The notes under the pieces are model-generated. The model made no database searches. It saw only the letters and a list, made by a program, of their open reading frames with translations, and was not told where the DNA came from. From Stygiolobus caldivivus (GTDB taxonomy: Archaea > Thermoproteota > Thermoprotei_A > Sulfolobales > Sulfolobaceae): 64,000 nt of DNA. Both the position numbers and the translations under genes were made by a program. The stretch is from contig NZ_AP024597.1 of assembly GCF_019704315.1 (NCBI RefSeq), forward strand, positions 2,170,001-2,234,000, in the 5' to 3' direction. This document shows, one piece after another, positions 2,786 through 38,699 of this stretch (positions are counted from its first letter, which is position 1; each line of letters starts with the position of its first letter).

Positions 2786-4063
2786 CTAATCCTCCCTACC
2801 TATACTCTTTATCCATGACAATATACTGTCCAAACATTCTTCAGCATATTTCACAGTTATTACGCTATCTTCTTTATTTACTTTGGTAAATTTCCTGCCC
2901 ATCCCTGCATGAGAGACCATTTCTTCTTCTGTAATATCACACTTTACCTTTCCTCCTTCGTATACTTTACCTTCCAGCCAGTCAAGGACTCTCGTATTCC
3001 CTATCCTTATTAGGGAGTCCAGTAGGTATTCTCCATCTTTGACCAGTTCACTTAATTTCCTTATTATTTCTATCTCTCTCTTTATTAACGCCCTAGTAGC
3101 TCCCGTATAATAATCTAAGAATTCATTTAGTTTATCGAGAGTTATCTCTCCTTCAACTATCTTTTTGTTGGTTTCAACAAAATGGTAACCCATGAAATAA
3201 TACGGGGCACTCATACTCGCCCTGACCGAAGCAGTTAGCGAGAACACCCCATTACTCTTTTGTATTTGCAGTCCTTCTAAGATCTGTTTCCTAAATTCCT
3301 CTGGTGAAATTAGTTCACCAGTCTCTCTGATTAAATAAATAAGGGCTAACGGAAAGCCTAGCTCTAACGCTTTACCTATACCGTAGAGTTCGCTCTTACC
3401 TTGTGTGTTCATCCCTTTAGCAAGTTTAATGTCTGAAGTTAGGTACTGGTGTAGGTTTACGTCCTTTATCACTTTTTTTCTTAGCGGGAATAACCTATTT
3501 GAAAAGTCAGACGCTAGCTCGACTAACATTAACTGTTTCTTATGCGTAAACGCGTAATCTTCAACAGCTAACCTAACCGCGTTATATGTCACATATGCTA
3601 AATACGATGAGTCCTCGCTTAAATCTACCATAACCATCTCTGGCTCCTCAGATACTAGTTTGCTGTAAGTGTACAAATAACTGAGGAAGTTGAAATTTCC
3701 TATACCCCCATCATGGATACTGAGGACGTTACTACTTGACTTAAAAGTCCCTGAAGAGGGTAGGACGAATATTTCATCATTCATGTCGGGTAAGGATAGC
3801 CTCTGCATAACAAGTTCTTTAAGGGAGTTCTCTAAAATAGAGTATGAAGTAGGTAATTCGTTCAAATTCGTAGCCAGAAAAGAAGGTAAAAAGGCTAGTA
3901 TTTTCACATCGGTAGTCTCTTCTTTCAGGAAAGAGTACTCGGCTAATGATGGTTTATAGCTCTTTACTATGGTCTCGGTCTCATTCCCTCTGCTATCTAC
4001 AACCTTATATTCTTTTTCAGAGGTATTTATGTTAGTCCATGTAGAAACTAGTAATGTCTTCAT
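2786..4063 (-). CDS. Csx1-like CRISPR-associated protein (CARF + C-terminal HEPN), altered active-site motifs
   Basis: A 425-residue protein resembling the archaeal Csx1 (MJ1666) family. These cyclic-oligoadenylate-activated ribonucleases pair an N-terminal CARF sensor (about 1-190) with a C-terminal HEPN RNase (about 250-425). Visible hallmarks are the opening LLVSTWTN strand, the strand-plus-helix VMVDLSEDSSYLAYVTYNAV near 143-163, and the HAGM motif at His385. Two canonical motifs look broken. The usual D-[LIV]-T-H-G-[IL]-N ligand loop reads DLSEDSS, and the HEPN R-x4-H reads E-x4-H (Glu380, His385). No cas gene or CRISPR array is nearby. It could be an inactive or re-purposed Csx1, one with other catalytic residues, or a member of a related CARF family. 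Family membership is moderately sure; loss of activity is inference. Confidence 0.72.
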   Translation of the reverse strand: MKTLLVSTWTNINTSEKEYKVVDSRGNETETIVKSYKPSLAEYSFLKEETTDVKILAFLPSFLATNLNELPTSYSILENSLKELVMQRLSLPDMNDEIFVLPSSGTFKSSSNVLSIHDGGIGNFNFLSYLYTYSKLVSEEPEMVMVDLSEDSSYLAYVTYNAVRLAVEDYAFTHKKQLMLVELASDFSNRLFPLRKKVIKDVNLHQYLTSDIKLAKGMNTQGKSELYGIGKALELGFPLALIYLIRETGELISPEEFRKQILEGLQIQKSNGVFSLTASVRASMSAPYYFMGYHFVETNKKIVEGEITLDKLNEFLDYYTGATRALIKREIEIIRKLSELVKDGEYLLDSLIRIGNTRVLDWLEGKVYEGGKVKCDITEEEMVSHAGMGRKFTKVNKEDSVITVKYAEECLDSILSWIKSIGRED

Positions 4064-4385: not shown

Positions 4386-5729
4386 ATGTCAAAATCGTCT
4401 CAGAGAGGACTTCAAAAGCCTATTAGAGAAATAGGTCTAAGGGACTTAGTGTTTATGAGTCTTGGAGGGCAAGCCCCTTTTTTGAGTATTTTAGTTTACG
4501 GTGTTGCGTCTTACTCTGAAGCAGGGGCTTTTACTCCTATAGCAATAGTCCTAGGTACCATGTTAGTTTTGTTAAACGGTCTAGTAGCGTACAAGTTATC
4601 CGTTAAGTTCACTCAGAGCGGTGGGTATTATACATACTCATATTACTCCCTTACTAAAAGGCTTGGGTTTGAGACAGGTTGGACTTACTTATTTTATTCA
4701 GCATTATACGGTAGTGCATATGTTTTAGGTGCAGTAGCTGTAATCTCTACAGTTTTCCCTTTCTTCAACGTCTTTGAACTATCCCTAATTTTCCTTTCTG
4801 GGGCGTCTCTAATAGTGCTCCTTGGGAAGAGGCCGTCTTTCACTTATGCGATTTTTGCCAGCTCTCTCGAGATACTTATTATGGGAGTACTTGCAATTAC
4901 ATTTCTTTACTCTACTCACTTCACGTTCTATAACCCATTTTCGAAGATACCCCCTATTTCTTCACTCGCAGCTGCAATAATATTTGGCTCCAGCATACCT
5001 ACAGGTTATGGGTCGATAACCCCGTTATCAGGCGAAGTTAAAGACCCTAAAAAGACAGTACCAAGGGCTATCGTTACAGTGATTTTACTAGGTGGGCTTT
5101 TCGCTTCCTTTGACATCTACGCTATAATTGACCACATAGTGTACTATAACTTGGACTTAAGTTCCTCGATGTCCCTTCTTACGTTAATCCAAAACAGGTT
5201 CGGGTTAGCGACTTTAGCCTTCGCCTCTATAGCCGCTATAAATGACGGCATATTAGCTACTTTGACTTTTATGTTTGCCACTTCCAGGACTATTTACGCG
5301 ATGTCAGTTAACGGTTTCTTCCCCCAAAAACTAGCTGAGCTGAAAAACGGTAGGGAACCTTTTAATGCTGTAGTAGTCACCGTAATAGCATATTGGATAA
5401 TAGTCCTACTCTCTCTAGTCCTCTTTAGTGGTAATGCGTTTAATGCGTTCTTTGCAGTAGGGTTTATGTCGCTACTCGGTAACCTCTATGTCCACCTAGC
5501 TACGGACTTCTCTCTTACGAGGATATCGTTAAAGAGGTTAAAGAAGAGAAAGTTAGAGATTTCACTGTCCTTAGGTGCAGCTGCGTTTACAATATATGTA
5601 ATGATAACTTCTATACCTTCGGCGGCTGCAGCAGCACTCGGTGCCTTCGTACTTTGGTTGTTAGCCGGGTTTATGGTCGCGGAAATAATAGATATGGCTA
5701 AGCAGGAGCAACAAGACGAAGGCAGATAA
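4386..5729 (+). CDS. APC-superfamily amino acid permease
   Basis: A 447-residue integral membrane protein with about 12 hydrophobic segments. It has the APC hallmark opening helix: GLRDLVFMSLGGQAPFLS near residues 17-34, with the Gly-rich unwound region. The middle helix region GSSIPTGYGSITPLSGEVKDP near 203-223 matches the TM6 and following loop, where APC transporters usually carry a P-x-x-x-x-x-E-x-x-P-x(1-2)-[KR]-x-x-P pattern. It would import amino acids or related amines by proton or sodium coupling. It stands alone on the plus strand. A second, distinct APC permease lies at 55.8 kb. Substrate unknown. Confidence 0.88.
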   Translation: MSKSSQRGLQKPIREIGLRDLVFMSLGGQAPFLSILVYGVASYSEAGAFTPIAIVLGTMLVLLNGLVAYKLSVKFTQSGGYYTYSYYSLTKRLGFETGWTYLFYSALYGSAYVLGAVAVISTVFPFFNVFELSLIFLSGASLIVLLGKRPSFTYAIFASSLEILIMGVLAITFLYSTHFTFYNPFSKIPPISSLAAAIIFGSSIPTGYGSITPLSGEVKDPKKTVPRAIVTVILLGGLFASFDIYAIIDHIVYYNLDLSSSMSLLTLIQNRFGLATLAFASIAAINDGILATLTFMFATSRTIYAMSVNGFFPQKLAELKNGREPFNAVVVTVIAYWIIVLLSLVLFSGNAFNAFFAVGFMSLLGNLYVHLATDFSLTRISLKRLKKRKLEISLSLGAAAFTIYVMITSIPSAAAAALGAFVLWLLAGFMVAEIIDMAKQEQQDEGR

Positions 5730-8724: not shown

Positions 8725-9482
8725 AGGGTAAACTATTTATAGTGGGTACCGGCCCCGGTGCACCCCCAGTAAGGACATTCAGGATGGTCGAAGCCATAAA
8801 ACAGAGCGACGTAATAGTCGCCTACACTACTTATGCTAAATTAGTCGGTGACCTGGTTGACGGTAAAGAAGTGATCACGGCTAGGATGAAAGAGGAACTA
8901 CTCAGGGCCAGGGTGGCTATCCAGAAAGCGTTAGAAGGTAAGACAGTTTCTTTGATCTCCAGTGGCGACCCACAAGTTTACGGTATGGCAAGCCCGGCCT
9001 TGGAGATGATGTGCAAAAATAACGTGGACTTAGACGTGGAAATCGTACCGGGAGTAACTGCTGCGTTAGCGGCATCAGCCAGGTTGGGTTCTCCTCTGGC
9101 TATGGACTTTGCCTCAATAAGCTTAAGCGACCTATTAGTCCCAGCTGAAGAGATCCTCCATAGAGTCAGGAAGGCGGTTGAAGGGGACTTTGTGATAGCC
9201 CTCTACAACCCTATAAATAAACCTCTGCTGGAGAAGGCTATGAGTATAATTGCAGAGTGGAGGAAGCCAGAAACACCTATAGGTATAGTGAAAAGTGCAT
9301 ATAGAGAAGATGAAGAAGTTGTGGTCACTACATTATCGGACTGGAAGAAATATGAGGGGATTATAAACATGATAACTACTATTATTGTAGGTAATTCAAG
9401 GAGCTACATCTGCAACGGGAAAATTATTACCCCAAGGGGTTACGATAGGAGGTATAACTTTGAGCTTAATAACAACTCTTAA
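8721..9482 (+). CDS. cbiH: CbiH, cobalt-precorrin-3 C17-methyltransferase
   Basis: A 253-residue SAM-dependent methylase that methylates C17 and drives ring contraction. Family blocks are visible: LFIVGTGPGAP at the N-terminus, ISSGDPQVYGMASPALEM (about 79-97), PGVTAALAASARLGSPL, and the CbiH/CobJ-specific FASISLSDLLVPAEE (about 132-146), followed by ALYNPINK. It begins with an ATGA overlap to the cbiX-cbiC stop and runs 23 bases into cbiD. There is no extra Fe-S or CbiH60-type extension, so this is the short form. Confidence 0.94.
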   Translation: MKGKLFIVGTGPGAPPVRTFRMVEAIKQSDVIVAYTTYAKLVGDLVDGKEVITARMKEELLRARVAIQKALEGKTVSLISSGDPQVYGMASPALEMMCKNNVDLDVEIVPGVTAALAASARLGSPLAMDFASISLSDLLVPAEEILHRVRKAVEGDFVIALYNPINKPLLEKAMSIIAEWRKPETPIGIVKSAYREDEEVVVTTLSDWKKYEGIINMITTIIVGNSRSYICNGKIITPRGYDRRYNFELNNNS

Positions 9483-10509
9483 ACGGTTTGGGATAACTAC
9501 TGGGGGAGCTGCGGCTGCGGCTTCCAAAGCATCCGTGATTTTCCTCGTCAGAGGGGAGACCCCTAAGAGTGTTACAATCCCTACTCCTATAGGTCTAAGG
9601 CTTGAGATCCCAGTAGAGAAGTACGCTAAGAAAGAGGAAAAATACTGTGCTACGGTGAGGAAGTTTGCCGGAGATAACCCTGATGTGCTAGACGGGCTAG
9701 AGATCACGTCCTGTTCGAGGAGGAGCGAGTCCCTCAAGGTCATAGGGGGTGACGGTATAGGTATCATTACTAGGCCGGGCCTTAGGGGAGAAGTAGGGAG
9801 TAAATCCATAAGTCCTACAGCATTATCGATGATTATAGAAGCTGTTAAGGAAGTAGTAAGTGAAGGGGTCGAAGTAGAGATAACAGTCCCGAACGGAAAA
9901 GTAATAGCCCGTAATACTATGAACCCTTCTATAGGGATTAATGACGGTATATCGATTTTGGGGACAACCGGGATTGAATACCCTGTCAGTGATGAAGATT
10001 ATATGGATCATTTAAGGGCTGAAATCTGTGTTATAAGGCACGCGGGGAGTAAGAAGTTAGTGATCGCGCCGGGGAATGTAAGCTTTGACTTCGCTTCAAA
10101 AAGGTACGGCGATATAGTAGTTAAAATAGGAGATAGAGTAGGCGATACAATAAAACTTGCTGAGGAACTGGGTTTTGAACACGTAGTGTTAGTTAGTCTT
10201 CCAGGCAAATTGGTAAAAGTGGCAGCAGGTCTGATGAACACCCATAATAAGTATGGAGATGCTAGAGTCGAGACTATAACATTTGCTTCAGTACTGGCTG
10301 ATATTGACCATGAAAAAATTAAGAGAGTAGCTGGATCTCTAACGGTCTCCGAAGCGTTAACTTACTTAGATGAAGGGGAAAAGGTTAAGGTTATGAAAGT
10401 AATAGCTGAAAGGGCCCTAAAGAGGATAAGGGCCTTATCTAAGGTCAAAGTGGGTATAATAGCACTGTCGGAAAACGGTAAAGTTATTTCGGAGGTAGGT
10501 GACCTGTGA
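9460..10509 (+). CDS. cbiD: CbiD, cobalt-precorrin-5B C1-methyltransferase
   Basis: The anaerobic-pathway C1 methylase, structurally unrelated to the other ring methylases. The 349 residues show the CbiD signatures RFGITTGGAAAAASKA at the N-terminus, GDGIGIITRPGLRGEVGSKSISP (two blocks within about 97-119), MNPSIGINDGISILGTTGI (about 151-169) and SLPGKLVKVAAGLMNTH (about 246-262). The TTG start at 9460 lies inside cbiH. It is the start that leaves the conserved N-terminus intact, and 4-base stop/start overlaps are the rule in this operon. CbiD together with CbiG marks the pathway as the oxygen-independent one. Confidence 0.95.
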   Translation: MSLITTLKRFGITTGGAAAAASKASVIFLVRGETPKSVTIPTPIGLRLEIPVEKYAKKEEKYCATVRKFAGDNPDVLDGLEITSCSRRSESLKVIGGDGIGIITRPGLRGEVGSKSISPTALSMIIEAVKEVVSEGVEVEITVPNGKVIARNTMNPSIGINDGISILGTTGIEYPVSDEDYMDHLRAEICVIRHAGSKKLVIAPGNVSFDFASKRYGDIVVKIGDRVGDTIKLAEELGFEHVVLVSLPGKLVKVAAGLMNTHNKYGDARVETITFASVLADIDHEKIKRVAGSLTVSEALTYLDEGEKVKVMKVIAERALKRIRALSKVKVGIIALSENGKVISEVGDL

Positions 10510-11087
10510 GAGTCCCCGGCATCCCTGATGAAGAGTTTATAAGGGAAGAAAAAATCCCGATGACGAAAGAGGAAATAAGGGTTTTAGCACTATCTAAGTC
10601 AAGGCTATTTGTAGGGGCGAGGTTTCTGGACGTAGGGAGCGGTACGGGTAGTGTTACAGTGGAAGCGGCATTAGTAGTGGGCGACAAGGGGAAAGTCTAT
10701 GCTATCGAGAAAGAAGATAACGCGTATAATTTAACGCTTAAAAACCTTGAAAAATTTAACGTAAGAAACGTAGAGGTCATTAAGGGGGAAGCCCCCGAGG
10801 CGATAGACAAGGTCAATGACATTTTAGATGCCGTATTCATAGGTGGAGGCTCGGAGAGGATAAAAGAGATCTTAGACCGTGTAGACAAGAGGTTAAAAAA
10901 AGGGGGGAGGGTGGTCGCAGATGCCATCCTTATAGAAACGGCGGTAAACACGGTAAGCGCGATGGAAAAACTAGGTTATAAGACCGAAATAATAGAGGTC
11001 ATAGTAGCTAAAGGGATGAAGACAAGTAAGGGGTATGCTATGATCTCCCGGAACCCCGTGTTCGTAATTTACGGTGAGAAGGTTTGA
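10506..11087 (+). CDS. cbiT: CbiT, cobalt-precorrin-6B C15-methyltransferase (decarboxylating)
   Basis: A 193-residue class I Rossmann methyltransferase that methylates C15 and decarboxylates the acetate side chain at C12. The N-terminal IPDEEFIREEKIPMTKEEIR is the family signature. The SAM loop is DVGSGTGSVTVEAA (about 39-52), followed by AIEKE and, further on, DAVFIGGGSE. It starts with GTG, overlapping the cbiD stop (GTGA), and ends overlapping the TTG start of cbiL. In enteric and many actinobacterial genomes this activity is fused or paired with CbiE; here the two are separate. Confidence 0.94.
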   Translation: MRVPGIPDEEFIREEKIPMTKEEIRVLALSKSRLFVGARFLDVGSGTGSVTVEAALVVGDKGKVYAIEKEDNAYNLTLKNLEKFNVRNVEVIKGEAPEAIDKVNDILDAVFIGGGSERIKEILDRVDKRLKKGGRVVADAILIETAVNTVSAMEKLGYKTEIIEVIVAKGMKTSKGYAMISRNPVFVIYGEKV

Positions 11088-11764
11088 CCAAGGAGTTATT
11101 CGTTATCGGTTTAGGTCCCGGAGACCCTGAGCTCCTGACAGTAAAGGCCACCAAACTCCTCAGGGAATCTAAAACGGTATTTGTCCCCTATTCCACTAAT
11201 ACTAACAGGAGTCTAGCGCTAAATGTTATTTCACCTTACCTTAGCAACACGGCTAAAGTAGTACAATTGGGGTTCCCGATGGGTAAGGAAGTCGACCAAA
11301 ATTCCCTAAAACAACTAGGTGAGGTCATATGCAATAACCTCGAAGAAGGAGTCAACACTTTTGTCACTCTTGGAGACCCGTCCTTATACAGTACGTATTA
11401 TAGGGTGTCTAAGTTCTTAAACTGTGTGGATAAGGTAGAGCTAATACCCGGTATATCTTCTATTACTGCATGTGCTTGTAAAAGTAACCTCCCGTTAGCT
11501 CTAGGTAACGAGGGGATAGCCGTTGTCCCTGCCGATAGGCTTGATTTAGTTGAACAAGCTAAAGGGAAATTTGATACGATAATTATCATGAAAGGGAACG
11601 TAAACTTAGACAAAGTTTCCGAGTCCCTTAAGGATGAATATAAACTTATTTATGCGCGTAGGTGTTATTTAAGCGGGGAGAAGATCACACCTTGGGATTT
11701 ATCTGTCTATGACAAGGATTATTTTTCCATGCTTATAGGGGTGAAAAAACGTGAAGATGGGTAA
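11084..11764 (+). CDS. cbiL: CbiL, cobalt-precorrin-2 C20-methyltransferase
   Basis: A 226-residue tetrapyrrole methylase catalysing the first dedicated ring methylation after cobalt insertion. It shows the VIGLGPGDPELLTVKATKLL opening, then VFVPYS, the loop TLGDPSLYSTY (about 94-104) and IPGISSITACAC, all typical of CbiL/CobI. The TTG start overlaps the cbiT stop, and the 3' end runs 14 bases into cbiF. Its low distance to cbiF at the N-terminus reflects the common methylase fold rather than recent duplication. Confidence 0.92.
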   Translation: MTKELFVIGLGPGDPELLTVKATKLLRESKTVFVPYSTNTNRSLALNVISPYLSNTAKVVQLGFPMGKEVDQNSLKQLGEVICNNLEEGVNTFVTLGDPSLYSTYYRVSKFLNCVDKVELIPGISSITACACKSNLPLALGNEGIAVVPADRLDLVEQAKGKFDTIIIMKGNVNLDKVSESLKDEYKLIYARRCYLSGEKITPWDLSVYDKDYFSMLIGVKKREDG

Positions 11765-12554
11765 GGTAGTGTTCATCGGTGCCGGTCCCGGAGACCCAGA
11801 GTTATTAACAGTAAAAGCAAAGAACAGGCTAGAAGAGGCTGACGTAGTACTTTATGCCGGTTCTCTGGTTAACACTGAAGTACTAAAGTGGGCTAGGAAA
11901 GACGCCGAAATTGTAAACACCGCTAGCTTAACTTTAGAGGAAATAACGGACATAATGATTAGGAGGGCTAAAGAAGGCAAGTTAATAGCGAGGTTAAAAT
12001 CAGGGGACTTCTCTATTTACGGTGCGCTAATAGAGGAGATCTGGGCTTTAGAAGATGCAGGTGTACCCTATGAACTAGTCCCCGGGATAACAGCTGCAAT
12101 AGGTACGGCCAGTGTGTTAGGTATTGAGTTAACGCTTCCTAAAATTTCGCAGACCCTGATAATAACTAGAGCATCAGGTGCCGTCCCAATGGAAGGTTCA
12201 ATAAAAGATTACGCACCCCATTTACTTAAGGGCGCTTCTATGGCAATTTACACCGGAGTCCAATTGATCGATAAAGTGGTCAGAGAATTGAAGGAAGGAG
12301 GGGTGCCAGATGACATGCCGGTGGTAGTTGTTTACAAAGCTACATGGCCCGAACAAAAGGTTATCAAAGGGACGGTCGGTGATATTGCAACGAAGGTGAA
12401 GGCTGAGAAGATAACTAAAGACAGCATGATAATAGTAGGTAAAATTGCTGATCCATCGAGGTATAAAGACCAGATAAGGTCTAGTGTGTACGATCCCTCT
12501 CACGCCCATTCCTTTAGACCAAAGAAAGATAATGCTAGGAAGAATTTTATATAG
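11751..12554 (+). CDS. cbiF: CbiF, cobalt-precorrin-4 C11-methyltransferase
   Basis: A 267-residue methylase of the C11 position, substrate provider for CbiG. Diagnostic blocks are VFIGAGPGDPELLTVKA, VLYAGSLVN (about 35-43), RLKSGDFSIYGALIEEI (about 81-97) and PGITAAIGTASVLGIELTLP. It is the last gene of the operon. A GTG start (11751) lies inside cbiL. The C-terminal tail after residue 245 is basic and rich in His and Lys and is not needed for the fold. A TATA-like TTTTATATAG over its last codons probably drives the next small gene. Confidence 0.95.
   Translation: MKMGKVVFIGAGPGDPELLTVKAKNRLEEADVVLYAGSLVNTEVLKWARKDAEIVNTASLTLEEITDIMIRRAKEGKLIARLKSGDFSIYGALIEEIWALEDAGVPYELVPGITAAIGTASVLGIELTLPKISQTLIITRASGAVPMEGSIKDYAPHLLKGASMAIYTGVQLIDKVVRELKEGGVPDDMPVVVVYKATWPEQKVIKGTVGDIATKVKAEKITKDSMIIVGKIADPSRYKDQIRSSVYDPSHAHSFRPKKDNARKNFI
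12544..12553 (+). promoter_or_regulatory. TATA box inside the 3' end of cbiF
   Basis: TTTTATATAG lies about 25-34 bases before the ATG at 12578, the spacing expected for a leaderless archaeal transcript. This suggests that the small membrane protein gene is transcribed independently of the cobalamin operon. Confidence 0.5.
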
Positions 12555-12577
12555 AATGGGATCACAATTCTAATACT

Positions 12578-12811
12578 ATGTTATCTTTAAGCCAGTTACG
12601 AAATAGACTCATCTTTATTGTCCTCGAGGTGGTAGGTTTTTTACTGATCTATGTAGGTTTTAGGACTTCAGGTGTAGTCTCTGTAGTAACAGGTGTATCA
12701 GGTTTGCTAGTAGTAGTTATAGCTGCTGGCTATTTCACTAGGTGTAAACCAGAAAGAGTTGATGAAACTACTGACCAGACAAATGAGAAACATTTTTCCC
12801 AATCTACGTAG
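12578..12811 (+). CDS. Small two-helix membrane protein
   Basis: A 77-residue protein with two predicted membrane helices, about residues 10-30 (RLIFIVLEVVGFLLIYVGF) and 34-53 (VVSVVTGVSGLLVVVIAAGY). A hydrophilic tail follows, with a Cys near residue 56 and Gln/Asn-rich end. No family was recognised. It follows cbiF by 23 bases on the same strand but has its own promoter, so a link to cobalamin is doubtful. The reading frame, start spacing and membrane-like composition make a real gene likely. Confidence 0.6.
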   Translation: MLSLSQLRNRLIFIVLEVVGFLLIYVGFRTSGVVSVVTGVSGLLVVVIAAGYFTRCKPERVDETTDQTNEKHFSQST

Positions 12812-12850
12812 CGTTAAGTTTAATTTCTTGAAAAGTGGCTAGTAATATAG

Positions 12851-13327
12851 ATGCCTAAGGAGTTAACTCCGTTAGAAAAATTACAATTGTTAGTTCCCGG
12901 GTACAGAGGGTATAAAGCTAAAGACTTAATACGTCAGGACGATTTTCTAGTTAGACAAGCTACAATTTTAAAGCTAGAAACAGCACTGACAAACCTCTCA
13001 AACTCTGAATCTCAAATAGTCAGGACAGATCCTTTCTCACCTCTTCTTAAAAATATAGAAGATACTATCTCACAAATAAGGACTATCATAGGATTACTTA
13101 ACTCTGCGCAAGGTGGTGGTGCGGACATATATGCAAGGTATAAAATTTTCACAGAACAACTCGATGAGATTTATAAGAACGACTTACAGATGGTGAGTAT
13201 TGCAGACCAAATAGTAACACTTTCTAATTTTCCCGACCAAGTCTATCAAATAAAATCACTTCTCGGTAACTTAAAGACTGTCTTATTGAATAGGACTAAG
13301 CTATTATTTCCACCAGAAACCAGGTAA
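12851..13327 (+). CDS. Conserved hypothetical soluble protein
   Basis: A 158-residue hydrophilic, mainly helical protein of unknown function. The N-terminal block LVPGYRGYKAKDLIRQDDFLVR (split: LVPGYRGYK about 14-22, then KDLIRQDDFLVR) resembles a segment I associate with uncharacterised proteins in bacteria and archaea. The rest looks like coiled helices with a central Gly-rich hinge (AQGGGAD, about 95-101). The ATG at 12851 follows an AT-rich region. No catalytic motif or membrane segment is visible. It lies beside the small membrane protein gene on the same strand. Confidence 0.65.
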   Translation: MPKELTPLEKLQLLVPGYRGYKAKDLIRQDDFLVRQATILKLETALTNLSNSESQIVRTDPFSPLLKNIEDTISQIRTIIGLLNSAQGGGADIYARYKIFTEQLDEIYKNDLQMVSIADQIVTLSNFPDQVYQIKSLLGNLKTVLLNRTKLLFPPETR

Positions 13328-13817
13328 AAAGTTAGCATCGTTTTTACTCTCTATCTTTTGAAAGTAGAAAGTTAACTTAGGTCTCTTGTTAAGCCATAAG
13401 TTTCTACAAGATTGCTTCATAAAACCTATTATACTCAGTTAGACACTAAAGGGCAAGTCTTCCATCATATTCGCGATGAATACGTATACTAGTTAATTAC
13501 TATTGTCTTTATAAACTAGTGCTATCAAAACCCTCTCCTTCATCAACCTCTCATGGTCATCAGAACGAGTAGTACCTTTTGGATTAACTGGGACTAAGTT
13601 AAAACCCAACCTTAACTATACCATGAGTAAGCAGTTGCTTATTAGTGAACTTACTAATATCTTTTTATAATTTGTTAATAGCAAATAACGTAGAGTTACT
13701 CTATATATGATTAAGTTAATAACAGCAGATAAATCTCGATTATACCCATAAAAATTATTCGAACCAACTTCTTTAACAAAAAGAGTTAAAAGAAATTAAA
13801 AAAGTCTAAACTAACTT
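13328..13817. other. 490-base non-coding region containing a MITE-like element
   Basis: No supported gene. The first 100 bases are AT-rich trailer. A degenerate element at 13430-13527 is related to one at 20728-20832. The rest (13530-13817) shows AT-rich DNA with short inverted pieces but no reading frame worth reporting. Confidence 0.5.
13430..13527 (-). repeat. MITE-like element, copy 1 (degenerate)
   Basis: About 98 bases related over their whole length, in inverted orientation, to 20728-20832. Shared landmarks in the same order are TATACTCAGT at one end, the 15-base core CACTAAAGGGCAAGT (13444-13458), a GAAT-containing segment, GTATAC (13483-13488), and TTGTC..TTTA.AAACTA near the other end. 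The terminal repeat at the 13527 end has decayed. There is no coding capacity. It is probably an old copy of a miniature inverted-repeat transposable element, moved in trans by a transposase not present here (inference). Confidence 0.7.
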
Positions 13818-14045
13818 CTATTTTTTCTTTATATTTTTCTTTATATTTTCTATTAAATCTTGGTTTATCTGTTTTAATCCGTGAGCTTTTTCCGCATGAA
13901 TCTTAATGATCTGTAATAATTCGTCTTCACTTGAGGCTCCTTTGACTTGATATCCACATTTCATGCCTATATCTTCACAGCTAAAGCTGTACTTCTTTTT
14001 ACCGAATAGCATAAAATTTACATAATAACAGAGGTATATCTTCAT
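13818..14045 (-). CDS. DUF1059-type small protein, single domain
   Basis: Up to 75 residues. The conserved part begins at about residue 19 with YSFSCEDIGMKCGYQ, then GASSEDELLQ and HAEKAH. The pattern of two Cys and a H-x4-H is typical of DUF1059 proteins and could bind a metal. No function is established for the family. A TATA-like sequence on the minus strand at about 14074-14083 favours the start at 14045. A second ATG at 14012 gives a 64-residue form without the odd hydrophobic leader and cannot be excluded. It is divergent from a two-domain paralogue 87 bases away, suggesting shared regulation. Confidence 0.75.
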   Translation of the reverse strand: MKIYLCYYVNFMLFGKKKYSFSCEDIGMKCGYQVKGASSEDELLQIIKIHAEKAHGLKQINQDLIENIKKNIKKK

Positions 14046-14132
14046 GTGTTAAAAATAATTTAACATAAATGTCGATATAAAGATAAAAATTTCTAACATT
14101 AGCTTAATACGATTATCACGGCACTTATTTCA

Positions 14133-14489
14133 ATGAAATATAACTTCAGCTGTGCGGATATAGGAATGAACTGCGGGTACCAGATCAAGGGTGCATCGAG
14201 TGAAGACGAGTTATTGGAAGAATTAAAGATACATGCTAAAATGTCTCACGGGTTAACCTCAATCCCAGCAGACGTATTAGATAAAATAAAGAAAAATATA
14301 AAGAAAAGTGGAAAGTACAGTTTTAGCTGTGCTGATGTAGGGATGAAGTGTGGATTCGAGATAGTAAATGCTGATACTGAGGAAGAACTATTAAATGAGT
14401 TAGCAATACACGCTAAATTAAGTCATAATATGACTTCAATTCCTCAGGACACCCTAAATGCGATAAAGTCCAAAATAAAAGTCATGTAA
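14133..14489 (+). CDS. Tandem two-domain DUF1059 protein
   Basis: A 118-residue protein made of two DUF1059 repeats, residues 1-58 and 61-118. Each has the FSCADxGMxCG block, an acidic EDELLEEL-type helix and an H-A-K-x-S-H motif. Repeat one is closer to the single-domain neighbour (shared IKGASSEDELL), so the three domains look like products of local duplication. The ATG at 14133 lies about 25 bases after a TATA-like TTAATACG, consistent with a leaderless mRNA. The function is unknown; a small metal-binding role is inference from the CC/HH pattern. Confidence 0.82.
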   Translation: MKYNFSCADIGMNCGYQIKGASSEDELLEELKIHAKMSHGLTSIPADVLDKIKKNIKKSGKYSFSCADVGMKCGFEIVNADTEEELLNELAIHAKLSHNMTSIPQDTLNAIKSKIKVM

Positions 14490-14505
14490 TTTTTTATTTA
14501 TTAAT
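14490..14505 (+). terminator. T-rich terminator after the tandem DUF1059 gene
   Basis: Immediately after the stop codon the plus strand reads a run of six T, then ATTTATT. T-rich runs without a hairpin are the usual archaeal termination signal. Assignment is by position and composition only. Confidence 0.4.
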
Positions 14506-20727: not shown

Positions 20728-20832
20728 TATACTCGGTTAGTTTGTAAAGGACAACAGGAGCTCTAGCCTAAAGTATACGCATTCGCTATGAATACGACGA
20801 AGCACTTGCCCTTTAGTGCTTGACTGAGTATA
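20728..20832 (+). repeat. MITE-like element, copy 2, with terminal inverted repeats
   Basis: A 105-base element bounded by TATACTCGGTTA and the inverted TGACTGAGTATA (10 of 12 positions complementary). Near the right end it holds a perfect 7-base stem AAGCACT/AGTGCTT with an 8-base loop (20800-20821). The reverse complement aligns along its whole length with 13430-13527. It has no reading frame. The layout fits a miniature inverted-repeat transposable element. Target duplications were not recognisable by eye. Confidence 0.75.
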
Positions 20833-21002
20833 AATTAGCAAGTAATATAAAATTATGGCGGTGATCCGATCTTACTTAAATAAAAGTTAAAGAAGAATAA
20901 ATCTAGTTTCATGAACATTAAGTTGGGAATATTCTAAGCATTCAAAAAGGAGGAAAAATTAAGGAGTAAGGAGATCAGAACATAGCAAGTTCTTCACAGT
21001 TT

Positions 21003-36287: not shown

Positions 36288-37487
36288 TCACACCTCGTAT
36301 CTCAGTGCCTTTGCAGGCTCTATTTTAGACGCCCTATACGCAGGGACAATACCAGCAATAGTGGTAATTATCATTATTGATATGAAGAGCCCGATTCCTT
36401 GCCCCAGATAAAACTCCGGCGACGCGTTCAAACCCCTAAAAATCGGTGAACTAAGTATGAGGTCTAGGAACGCAAAAGAACTGAGATAGCCTATCAGTAT
36501 TCCTATTCCTCCTCCTATTATTCCCATTATTGTAGCCTCTGTTAGGAATGTCAGCATTACCTGCGTCCTCGTGAAGCCTAAGGACATGAGGAGCCCAATC
36601 TCCCTAGTCCTCTCCACCACAGCAGTAATCATCGTAGTCAAAACGCTGATGAACGCAACTATAAAAGACGCTGAGCCTACAATAGCTAATAGCAAGTTAA
36701 ATGCCGATACCTGCTGTTGAATAAAAGTTATCTCGTCTTGGGTAGTAAATACTTGGACATAAGAACCCAAGTACGTATGTATCTGGTTCACTATGTTTTG
36801 AACATTACCTAAAGAAGACGCAACAACTATGGCTCCTGAATATTCTGAACCGTAAATCGACCTACCTAATGAGTCTGAAGCTAAGAGCCCTCTGTTTATG
36901 TCAATTGTACCTAATGTTATACCGTAATTATTTAACTCGCCGGTCACGAAAAACGTTATGGTCTTCTTACTACCATCGGGCAGTAATATACACGATGTGA
37001 TCTCTTGGCCCGTGTGATAAGTGGGTTGTCCTAGGTACTGGGGGGTAGCTATATAATAGCCTACGTCGACTTCGTTTAGGGAACTCCCTGCGGGGTACAG
37101 CCCGTTTTGTAGCCCCAACCCGGGTAGGGCTACTTCTAACTCCTTCAAATTAGCCGACAGTATAGTCACGGGTTTTGGCCCCTGAGGAGTAAGCATTGTG
37201 GCCGCGATGGTATAATAAGGTACGACTACTTTAACGCCGGGTATCTGGGATAACGTTTCCACGACATAAGAAGAAATGTATTTTCCATTAGGGACGACTA
37301 TAATGTCCTGCGGCGAGATATCTTTTTCGATCAAACCTAATGCTGAGTCAGAGACCCCTTGGACGGAAGCGGTAATTGCCACAATTATTAATGGTCCCAC
37401 GACTATACCTAAGATTGTTAAGATTGCCCTAGTCCTCCTTTCGAATAAGGCGCCTAACGCAAGCCTAATTAGGTCATAAAGCTTCAA
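36288..37487 (-). CDS. ABC transporter permease, MacB/FtsX type (second paralogue)
   Basis: A 399-residue permease with the MacB/FtsX plan: one N-terminal helix (ILTILGIVVGPLIIVAITA, about 22-40), a large outer domain (about 45-265), then three C-terminal helices. The FtsX core block VVERTREIGLLMSLGFTRTQ near 287-306 and the end motif PAYRASKIEPAKALRYEV are present. It starts with TTG, seven bases after the stop of the first permease. About 150 codons of its C-terminal DNA are nearly or fully identical in blocks to the first permease, while the outer domains differ. The two probably form a heterodimer with the ATPase at 41.2 kb. Confidence 0.9.
   Translation of the reverse strand: MKLYDLIRLALGALFERRTRAILTILGIVVGPLIIVAITASVQGVSDSALGLIEKDISPQDIIVVPNGKYISSYVVETLSQIPGVKVVVPYYTIAATMLTPQGPKPVTILSANLKELEVALPGLGLQNGLYPAGSSLNEVDVGYYIATPQYLGQPTYHTGQEITSCILLPDGSKKTITFFVTGELNNYGITLGTIDINRGLLASDSLGRSIYGSEYSGAIVVASSLGNVQNIVNQIHTYLGSYVQVFTTQDEITFIQQQVSAFNLLLAIVGSASFIVAFISVLTTMITAVVERTREIGLLMSLGFTRTQVMLTFLTEATIMGIIGGGIGILIGYLSSFAFLDLILSSPIFRGLNASPEFYLGQGIGLFISIMIITTIAGIVPAYRASKIEPAKALRYEV
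36289..36368. repeat. Gene-conversion block A, copy in permease 2
   Basis: 80 bases encoding the last residues of the permease match 37495-37574 with two differences. Together with block B this suggests recent conversion between the two adjacent paralogues. Confidence 0.8.
36502..36628. repeat. Gene-conversion block B, copy in permease 2
   Basis: 127 bases identical base for base to 37714-37840, covering the FtsX core ERTREIGLLMSLGFTRTQ and the following helix. Flanking DNA is clearly diverged, also at third codon positions. Confidence 0.9.
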
Positions 37488-37493
37488 AACCTT

Positions 37494-38699
37494 TCACACC
37501 TCGTATCTCAGTGCTTTCGCAGGCTCTATTTTAGACGCCCTATACGCAGGGACAATACCAGCAATAGTGGTAATCAACACTATTACGAGGAATATACCTA
37601 TAAGCTGTAATATAGATATTGAAGGTTGGATCTGAAAAGCCGCATTATGTCTTCCACCCGCACTAAAGGCCAAGCTTGTGAGGGCAAAAGAGCCTAGATA
37701 ACCCAATATAGTCCCTATTCCTCCTCCTATTATTCCCATTATTGTAGCCTCTGTTAGGAATGTCAGCATTACCTGCGTCCTCGTGAAGCCTAAGGACATG
37801 AGGAGCCCAATCTCCCTAGTCCTCTCCACCACAGCAGTAAACATTGTAGCTAGGACAGTAAAGAAGGCTACTACAAAAGAAGCCACTCCTGCGACTAACA
37901 GTAACGCTTCGAAAGAAGAAAGTTCTTCATTAACTAGGTGTAAGATCTGTGTACTTGCGGTAACTTGTACGTAGTTCCCGAACTCATCCTTTATTTCATT
38001 GACCAGAGTAGGCACTTCGGCTTCTGACGACGCTACCACAATAGCCCCCGAGTAGTTTGTACCACAAACGCTCTCTCCGAGAGAAAAAGGCGCGTATAAC
38101 GCTTGGTTAAAATTAGCACCGCCGAAAGAAGTAAGCTGAGCTAATTGCCCTACTACTAGGAACGTCTTAGCCTCTTTTTGACCGTCAGGATAGAGGATAT
38201 AGGTTACCATTATGTCTCCAGTGTGGTATGTAGGCTGACCTGAATACTGCGGGTTCGCGATATAGTAACCTACATCTAGTTCGTTATACGATGTCTCTGA
38301 GGGGAGGATACCGCTCTGTAACTTCAGACCGGGTATAACTACCTTTATGTAAGATATGTCCATTGAAAATATAACGGTAGGTTCTAACCCCTTAGGGGTA
38401 GCTATATAAGCAGGGATCAAATAATAGGGGACTACGGCTTTCACACCGGGGAGGTGCGAAATACTGTTTATCACGTAAGGGTTTAGAGTACCTTGTCCTT
38501 TAGGTGATAAATAAATGTTCAAGGGAGAGAAGAAGCTGGTCAAGTCTTGTGTGAGGCCGATATCAAACCCCTGAATGGTCGCGATCAAAGACACTACTAT
38601 CAGCGGGCCTACCAAGATCCCTAAGATCACTAAGATAGCCCTAGTCTTCCTTTCAAATAATGAAGAAAAAGCGTAGGCGAAAGTGTCAACTGCTCTCAT
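37494..38699 (-). CDS. ABC transporter permease, MacB/FtsX type (first paralogue)
   Basis: A 401-residue permease built like its downstream neighbour: N-terminal helix (AILVILGILVGPLIVVSLIA, about 21-40), outer domain with YHTGDIMVTYILYPDG near 160-175, and three C-terminal helices. Its start overlaps the end of the large adaptor gene by 14 bases. The core FtsX block and C-terminus are identical in amino acids to the paralogue. With the ATPase it would move or mechanically act on an envelope substrate; such systems export lipids, peptides or toxins, or drive conformational change of surface proteins. Confidence 0.9.
   Translation of the reverse strand: MRAVDTFAYAFSSLFERKTRAILVILGILVGPLIVVSLIATIQGFDIGLTQDLTSFFSPLNIYLSPKGQGTLNPYVINSISHLPGVKAVVPYYLIPAYIATPKGLEPTVIFSMDISYIKVVIPGLKLQSGILPSETSYNELDVGYYIANPQYSGQPTYHTGDIMVTYILYPDGQKEAKTFLVVGQLAQLTSFGGANFNQALYAPFSLGESVCGTNYSGAIVVASSEAEVPTLVNEIKDEFGNYVQVTASTQILHLVNEELSSFEALLLVAGVASFVVAFFTVLATMFTAVVERTREIGLLMSLGFTRTQVMLTFLTEATIMGIIGGGIGTILGYLGSFALTSLAFSAGGRHNAAFQIQPSISILQLIGIFLVIVLITTIAGIVPAYRASKIEPAKALRYEV
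37495..37574. repeat. Gene-conversion block A, copy in permease 1
   Basis: Partner of 36289-36368 (two differences in 80 bases), covering the codons for AGIVPAYRASKIEPAKALRY and neighbours. Confidence 0.8.
37714..37840. repeat. Gene-conversion block B, copy in permease 1
   Basis: Identical to 36502-36628 over 127 bases. Confidence 0.9.

Follow-up and report, generated by a model that had tools for sequence, protein, structure and literature searches.

A clade of orphan Csx1-like proteins in Sulfolobaceae with altered CARF and HEPN motifs, retained under purifying selection

Does a Csx1-like protein that carries neither the usual RNase motif nor the usual signal-binding motif still act in CRISPR signalling, or has it been put to another use? 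The question is raised by a single gene in the window, by which we mean the whole 64,000-nucleotide stretch of DNA analyzed (G000:C1:2170001-2234000, in a genome of 2.96 Mb). The gene and its parts are listed here.

2786..4063 (-): predicted HEPN-dead Csx1-like CARF-HEPN protein, 425 aa; ORF with ATG start, Pfam and PADLOC
3509..4063 (-): CARF domain, about residues 1-185; Pfam Csx1_CARF PF22230 over residues 16-185, E 1.5e-8
3605..3625 (-): DLSEDSS, residues 147-153, replacing D-x-T-H-G-x-N; alignment with 26 other Csx1-like proteins and profile alignment
3092..3094 (-): Arg324, present in nearly all clade members and absent from canonical Csx1; alignment
2846..3100 (-): HEPN-derived domain, residues 322-406; Pfam Csx1_HEPN PF09455, E 2e-18
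2909..2926 (-): EEMVSH, Glu380 to His385, with Glu at the catalytic Arg position; alignments
2894..2896 (-): Arg390, five residues past His385, invariant in 10 aligned intact close orthologues; alignment

Results

The window protein is Csx1-like but lacks the canonical motifs

The ORF at 2786-4063 (-) encodes a CARF domain and a Csx1-type HEPN domain in the order found in Csx1, and both Pfam matches lie above the cut-off. Its top PADLOC model is CARF9 CARF_HEPN PDLC01957, matched at full length (profile 1-410 of 410, 1.1e-145); the PADLOC Csx1 model PDLC01341 is matched at 3.5e-45. Solved Csx1 structures were recovered by a profile of the family plus one canonical Csx1 row (2I71 at 7e-21, 4EOG at 7e-10), and a profile of the orphan family alone still matches 2I71 (1.7e-6). 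An AlphaFold2 model built from few sequences was discarded (mean pLDDT 35).

The active center of SisCsx1 includes R399, N400, and H404, and its cA4-binding residues include Y14, Y19, S51, T154, H155, G156, and N158 (PMC6754442); these residues were placed on the window protein by motif and not by structure. In a profile alignment to the canonical Csx1 of the same genome (DITHGIN, RRNLYAHAG), the catalytic Arg lines up with E380 and the DITHGIN loop with DLSEDSS. Where a Csx1 HEPN would have R-x4-6-H the protein has Glu in place of the expected Arg, and where the CARF domain would contact cA4 through T-H-G-x-N it has S-E-D-S-S. Both substitutions described in the initial annotation, a DLSEDSS loop in place of D-x-T-H-G-x-N and a HEPN E-x4-H formed by Glu380 and His385, were confirmed by the alignments. 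Also absent is GDPxxY, an N-terminal motif of canonical Csx1 that, like T-H-G-x-N, includes residues contacting cA4 in SisCsx1.

The altered motifs characterize a Sulfolobaceae clade

Of 31 Sulfolobaceae genomes, 20 carry an orthologue, which is broken in one of them (G151). Among 197 genomes of the order that were searched, only those of the window's family yielded relatives. Across 398 genomes of the phylum, the matches outside Sulfolobaceae were partial and to proteins of about 430-570 aa, and a search of viruses, phages, and plasmids returned no relatives. A tree was built from the 19 intact orphans and 26 other Csx1-like proteins encoded in the same 31 genomes; a branch supported at 99/96 sets all the orphans apart. 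The best PADLOC matches across the clade are PDLC01957, as for the window protein, and PDLC01954, for members of a Saccharolobus-type branch; that label, as applied to the genus of G131, rests on equating the G131 Csx1 with 2I71 by C-terminal sequence only. The orphan of G183 (Sulfolobus MAG UBA167, 71% complete) nests within another genus (g7), a position that may reflect transfer or a misbinned contig. In the best explanation, the orphan is a Csx1 paralogue passed on vertically within Sulfolobaceae. The alterations first described for one Csx1-like protein are real, but they belong to a whole Sulfolobaceae clade and not to a single odd protein.

R-x4-H stands at the catalytic position in 1 of 19 clade members versus 25 of 26 other Csx1-like proteins of the same genomes (Fisher 2e-10, a value that ignores relatedness), and a [HN]-G-x-N-type CARF motif in 1 of 19 versus 26 of 26 (Fisher 1e-11, with the same caveat). 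The sole member keeping R-x4-H is G167, with ERNFSAH together with DTTNGFT. Among close orthologues the position of the lost Arg is occupied by E, Y, K, D, or V. Because Glu380 is not conserved, the Arg was lost and no functional Glu took its place; E-x4-H is not a new motif. When conservation was checked in orthologues, Glu380 itself varied, and absence of the Arg was common to them. That the family normally looks this way holds insofar as the orthologues lack the Arg, but nothing indicates that the family is active.

Met382, Ser384, His385, Ala386, Gly387, and Arg390 are invariant in the alignment of 10 intact close orthologues, as is Arg324. Members from the genus of G131 and from two other genera (G179, G163) have neither the Arg-x4-His motif nor the His; in the Saccharolobus-type branch the segment around the His is gone along with it. 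Two independent losses are the count under parsimony only: a history in which G167 branched off first and the loss happened once is not rejected by the AU test (p 0.11).

The orphan is under purifying selection

Informative pairs give dN/dS of 0.03-0.15 for the orphan, the G059-G011 pair standing at 0.06. One close pair, G155-G146 (dS 0.03), gives 0.59 from too few changes to weigh. Between the window genome (G000) and its nearest relative, G108, pS is saturated at 0.87; pN is 0.21 for the CARF domain and 0.10 for the HEPN remnant, where constraint is strongest in this comparison. By these substitution rates, all domains of the orphan, the HEPN remnant included, evolve under purifying selection. 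The altered motifs are neither a one-off mutation nor decay; such rates would not be expected of a mere relic.

The orphan stands apart from CRISPR loci

The orphan is a single gene between a convergent TauE/SafE permease gene (1994-2764 +) and a divergent amino-acid permease gene (4386-5729 +), with a CbiG gene as the next one along. No match to Cas10, RAMP, or a second Csx1 lies in the window, the nearest being about 0.66 Mb away, and no CRISPR-like repeat array occurs within it, bearing out the earlier statement that the gene has no CRISPR or cas neighbors. Elsewhere in the window, a recent tandem duplication probably gave rise to two adjoining FtsX/MacB-type permease genes (36288-38699, -), which share stretches of 88% identity. 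A 38-nt inverted repeat (13823-13860 / 14270-14307, 87% complementary, arms separated by 409 nt) lies beside small, similar-looking coding stretches (13823-14490), and a 62-nt inverted repeat (13429-13490 / 20772-20833, 77% complementary, arms 7.3 kb apart) may represent mobile-element remnants.

Gene order around the orphan is stable within genera, and no neighbor is common to all genera. A gene judged by eye to be aconitase-like adjoins it together with a DUF402 gene in two genera (g1, g4), as do NurA and HerA genes in another and different genes elsewhere. In one genus (L027 of G125, about 9248-13527), a NurA-domain gene begins 38 bp after the orphan with a HerA-like ATPase gene beyond, a possible defense or repair island.

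Cas10 is present in 17 of the 20 orphan carriers; one of these is the window genome, with four Cas10 matches and further Csx1-type CARF proteins. Two models found no Cas10 in G108, G011, and G163, although the second (Cmr2) is narrow and also misses the Cas10 of G059, and a Cas10 could have been missed in the drafts G011 (20 contigs) and G163 (93% complete). RAMP matches number none in G011 and one each in G108 and G163. No other Csx1-type CARF protein was matched in G011, G059, and G163, absences limited by draft genomes and model sensitivity. Across the 31 genomes, presence of the orphan shows no association with Cas10 (Fisher p 1). Being encoded with, or dependent on, a type III Cas10, as expected of Csx1, was not seen for the orphan. 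G108, a sister species assembled as one contig with no Cas10 match, has a canonical csx1 that a frameshift interrupts ahead of the HEPN motif (L110 6336-7337, C1 from about 1210339), while its orphan gene is intact; a second Csx1-like protein of that genome (L106, G108:C1:1183926 region) has DITHGVN intact and R-x4-H nowhere.

Discussion

At the level of sequence, our results establish the loss of the canonical Arg and signal motif, the retention of the gene, and selection on it. We give about an even chance to the reading that the orphan is a repurposed Csx1 paralogue, no longer a cA4-activated RNase but a pseudoenzyme serving as sensor or scaffold. A Csx1 paralogue would have ceased to be an RNase activated by cyclic tetra-adenylate (cA4), and its descendant would keep the fold of a CARF-HEPN dimer. 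In the CARF cleft there would be either no ligand or a small molecule other than cA4. Instead of cutting, the HEPN-derived domain would serve for binding or dimerization, with RNA or another protein as its partner. Csx1 HEPN domains are predicted to be active RNases on the grounds that their motif is strongly conserved (PMC3710099). HEPN domains without active residues have been suggested to bind nucleic acid (PMC3710099), and the binding role proposed for the remnant follows that suggestion. Among the possibilities raised at the outset, a move to a new cellular role fits best, because the orphan persists in three genomes without detected Cas10 and is under purifying selection. More tentatively, and in our view rather less probably, a CARF-HEPN protein may have been recruited from CRISPR signalling into the core physiology of Sulfolobaceae, as a sensor of a non-cOA nucleotide with a non-catalytic HEPN fold whose active site was perhaps lost twice independently. 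G167 keeps both R-x4-H and DTTNG, so some of the clade may have remained active RNases that respond to cOA.

It is conceivable, though we think it unlikely, that the orphan instead modulates type III cOA signalling, as a sponge for cA4, as a ring nuclease, or by partnering canonical Csx1 in a dominant-negative manner. The CARF domain is retained, ring nuclease activity is known for some CARF proteins (PMC7694759) and provides a precedent, and the frequency of Cas10 among carriers, with four matches and further Csx1-type CARF proteins in the window genome itself, means that a link to CRISPR could persist. However, the cA4-contact motifs are replaced and there is no statistical association with Cas10. 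Selection also persists in carriers where Cas10 was not found, and it is strong in the G059-G011 pair, in both genomes of which no other Csx1-type CARF protein was detected. The initial proposal of a decoy or ring nuclease partner is possible but less likely, because genomes in which neither Cas10 nor canonical Csx1 was detected also carry the orphan.

Less probable again is that the protein is still an RNase under a new activator, with His385 paired to another basic residue, either Arg390 (H-x4-R) or Arg324. All three residues are invariant in the aligned close orthologues, constraint between G000 and G108 is strongest in the HEPN remnant, and Parep HEPN proteins, in which the Arg is absent and the His kept (PMC3710099), offer a precedent. 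Yet the Saccharolobus-type members have neither the His nor its surrounding segment, and Arg390 and Arg324 could be structural. A pseudogene decaying after loss of its CRISPR role, to which the stop inside the G151 copy might point, is very improbable given 19 other intact copies and purifying selection over all domains, and the dN/dS values contradict it.

If the orphan is indeed a repurposed Csx1, it would be a clear natural example of a CRISPR alarm effector that became a non-nuclease protein. A diverged orphan occurs alongside a canonical Csx1 matching the solved S. solfataricus protein 2I71 in one genome, which makes genetic testing possible in a model genus. The label CARF-HEPN does not imply an RNase, and this bears on counts of type III effectors.

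The family is already in PADLOC as CARF9 CARF_HEPN. Clusters PDLC01957 and PDLC01954 correspond to the orphan clade under a name that implies an effector HEPN, and no mention of their inactivation was found in the PADLOC library or the literature searched, a coverage to which the 2020 CARF classification did not belong. Like Csx1 (SSO1389 2I71, PfCsx1 4EOG, SisCsx1), the orphan combines a CARF domain with a C-terminal HEPN-derived domain in similar length and order. Unlike Csx1, it has no catalytic Arg, T-H-G-x-N, or GDPxxY and lies outside cas loci. It resembles the CARF ring nuclease Crn1 in being a Sulfolobales CARF protein without an active HEPN, but differs from it in carrying a full HEPN-derived domain under selection.
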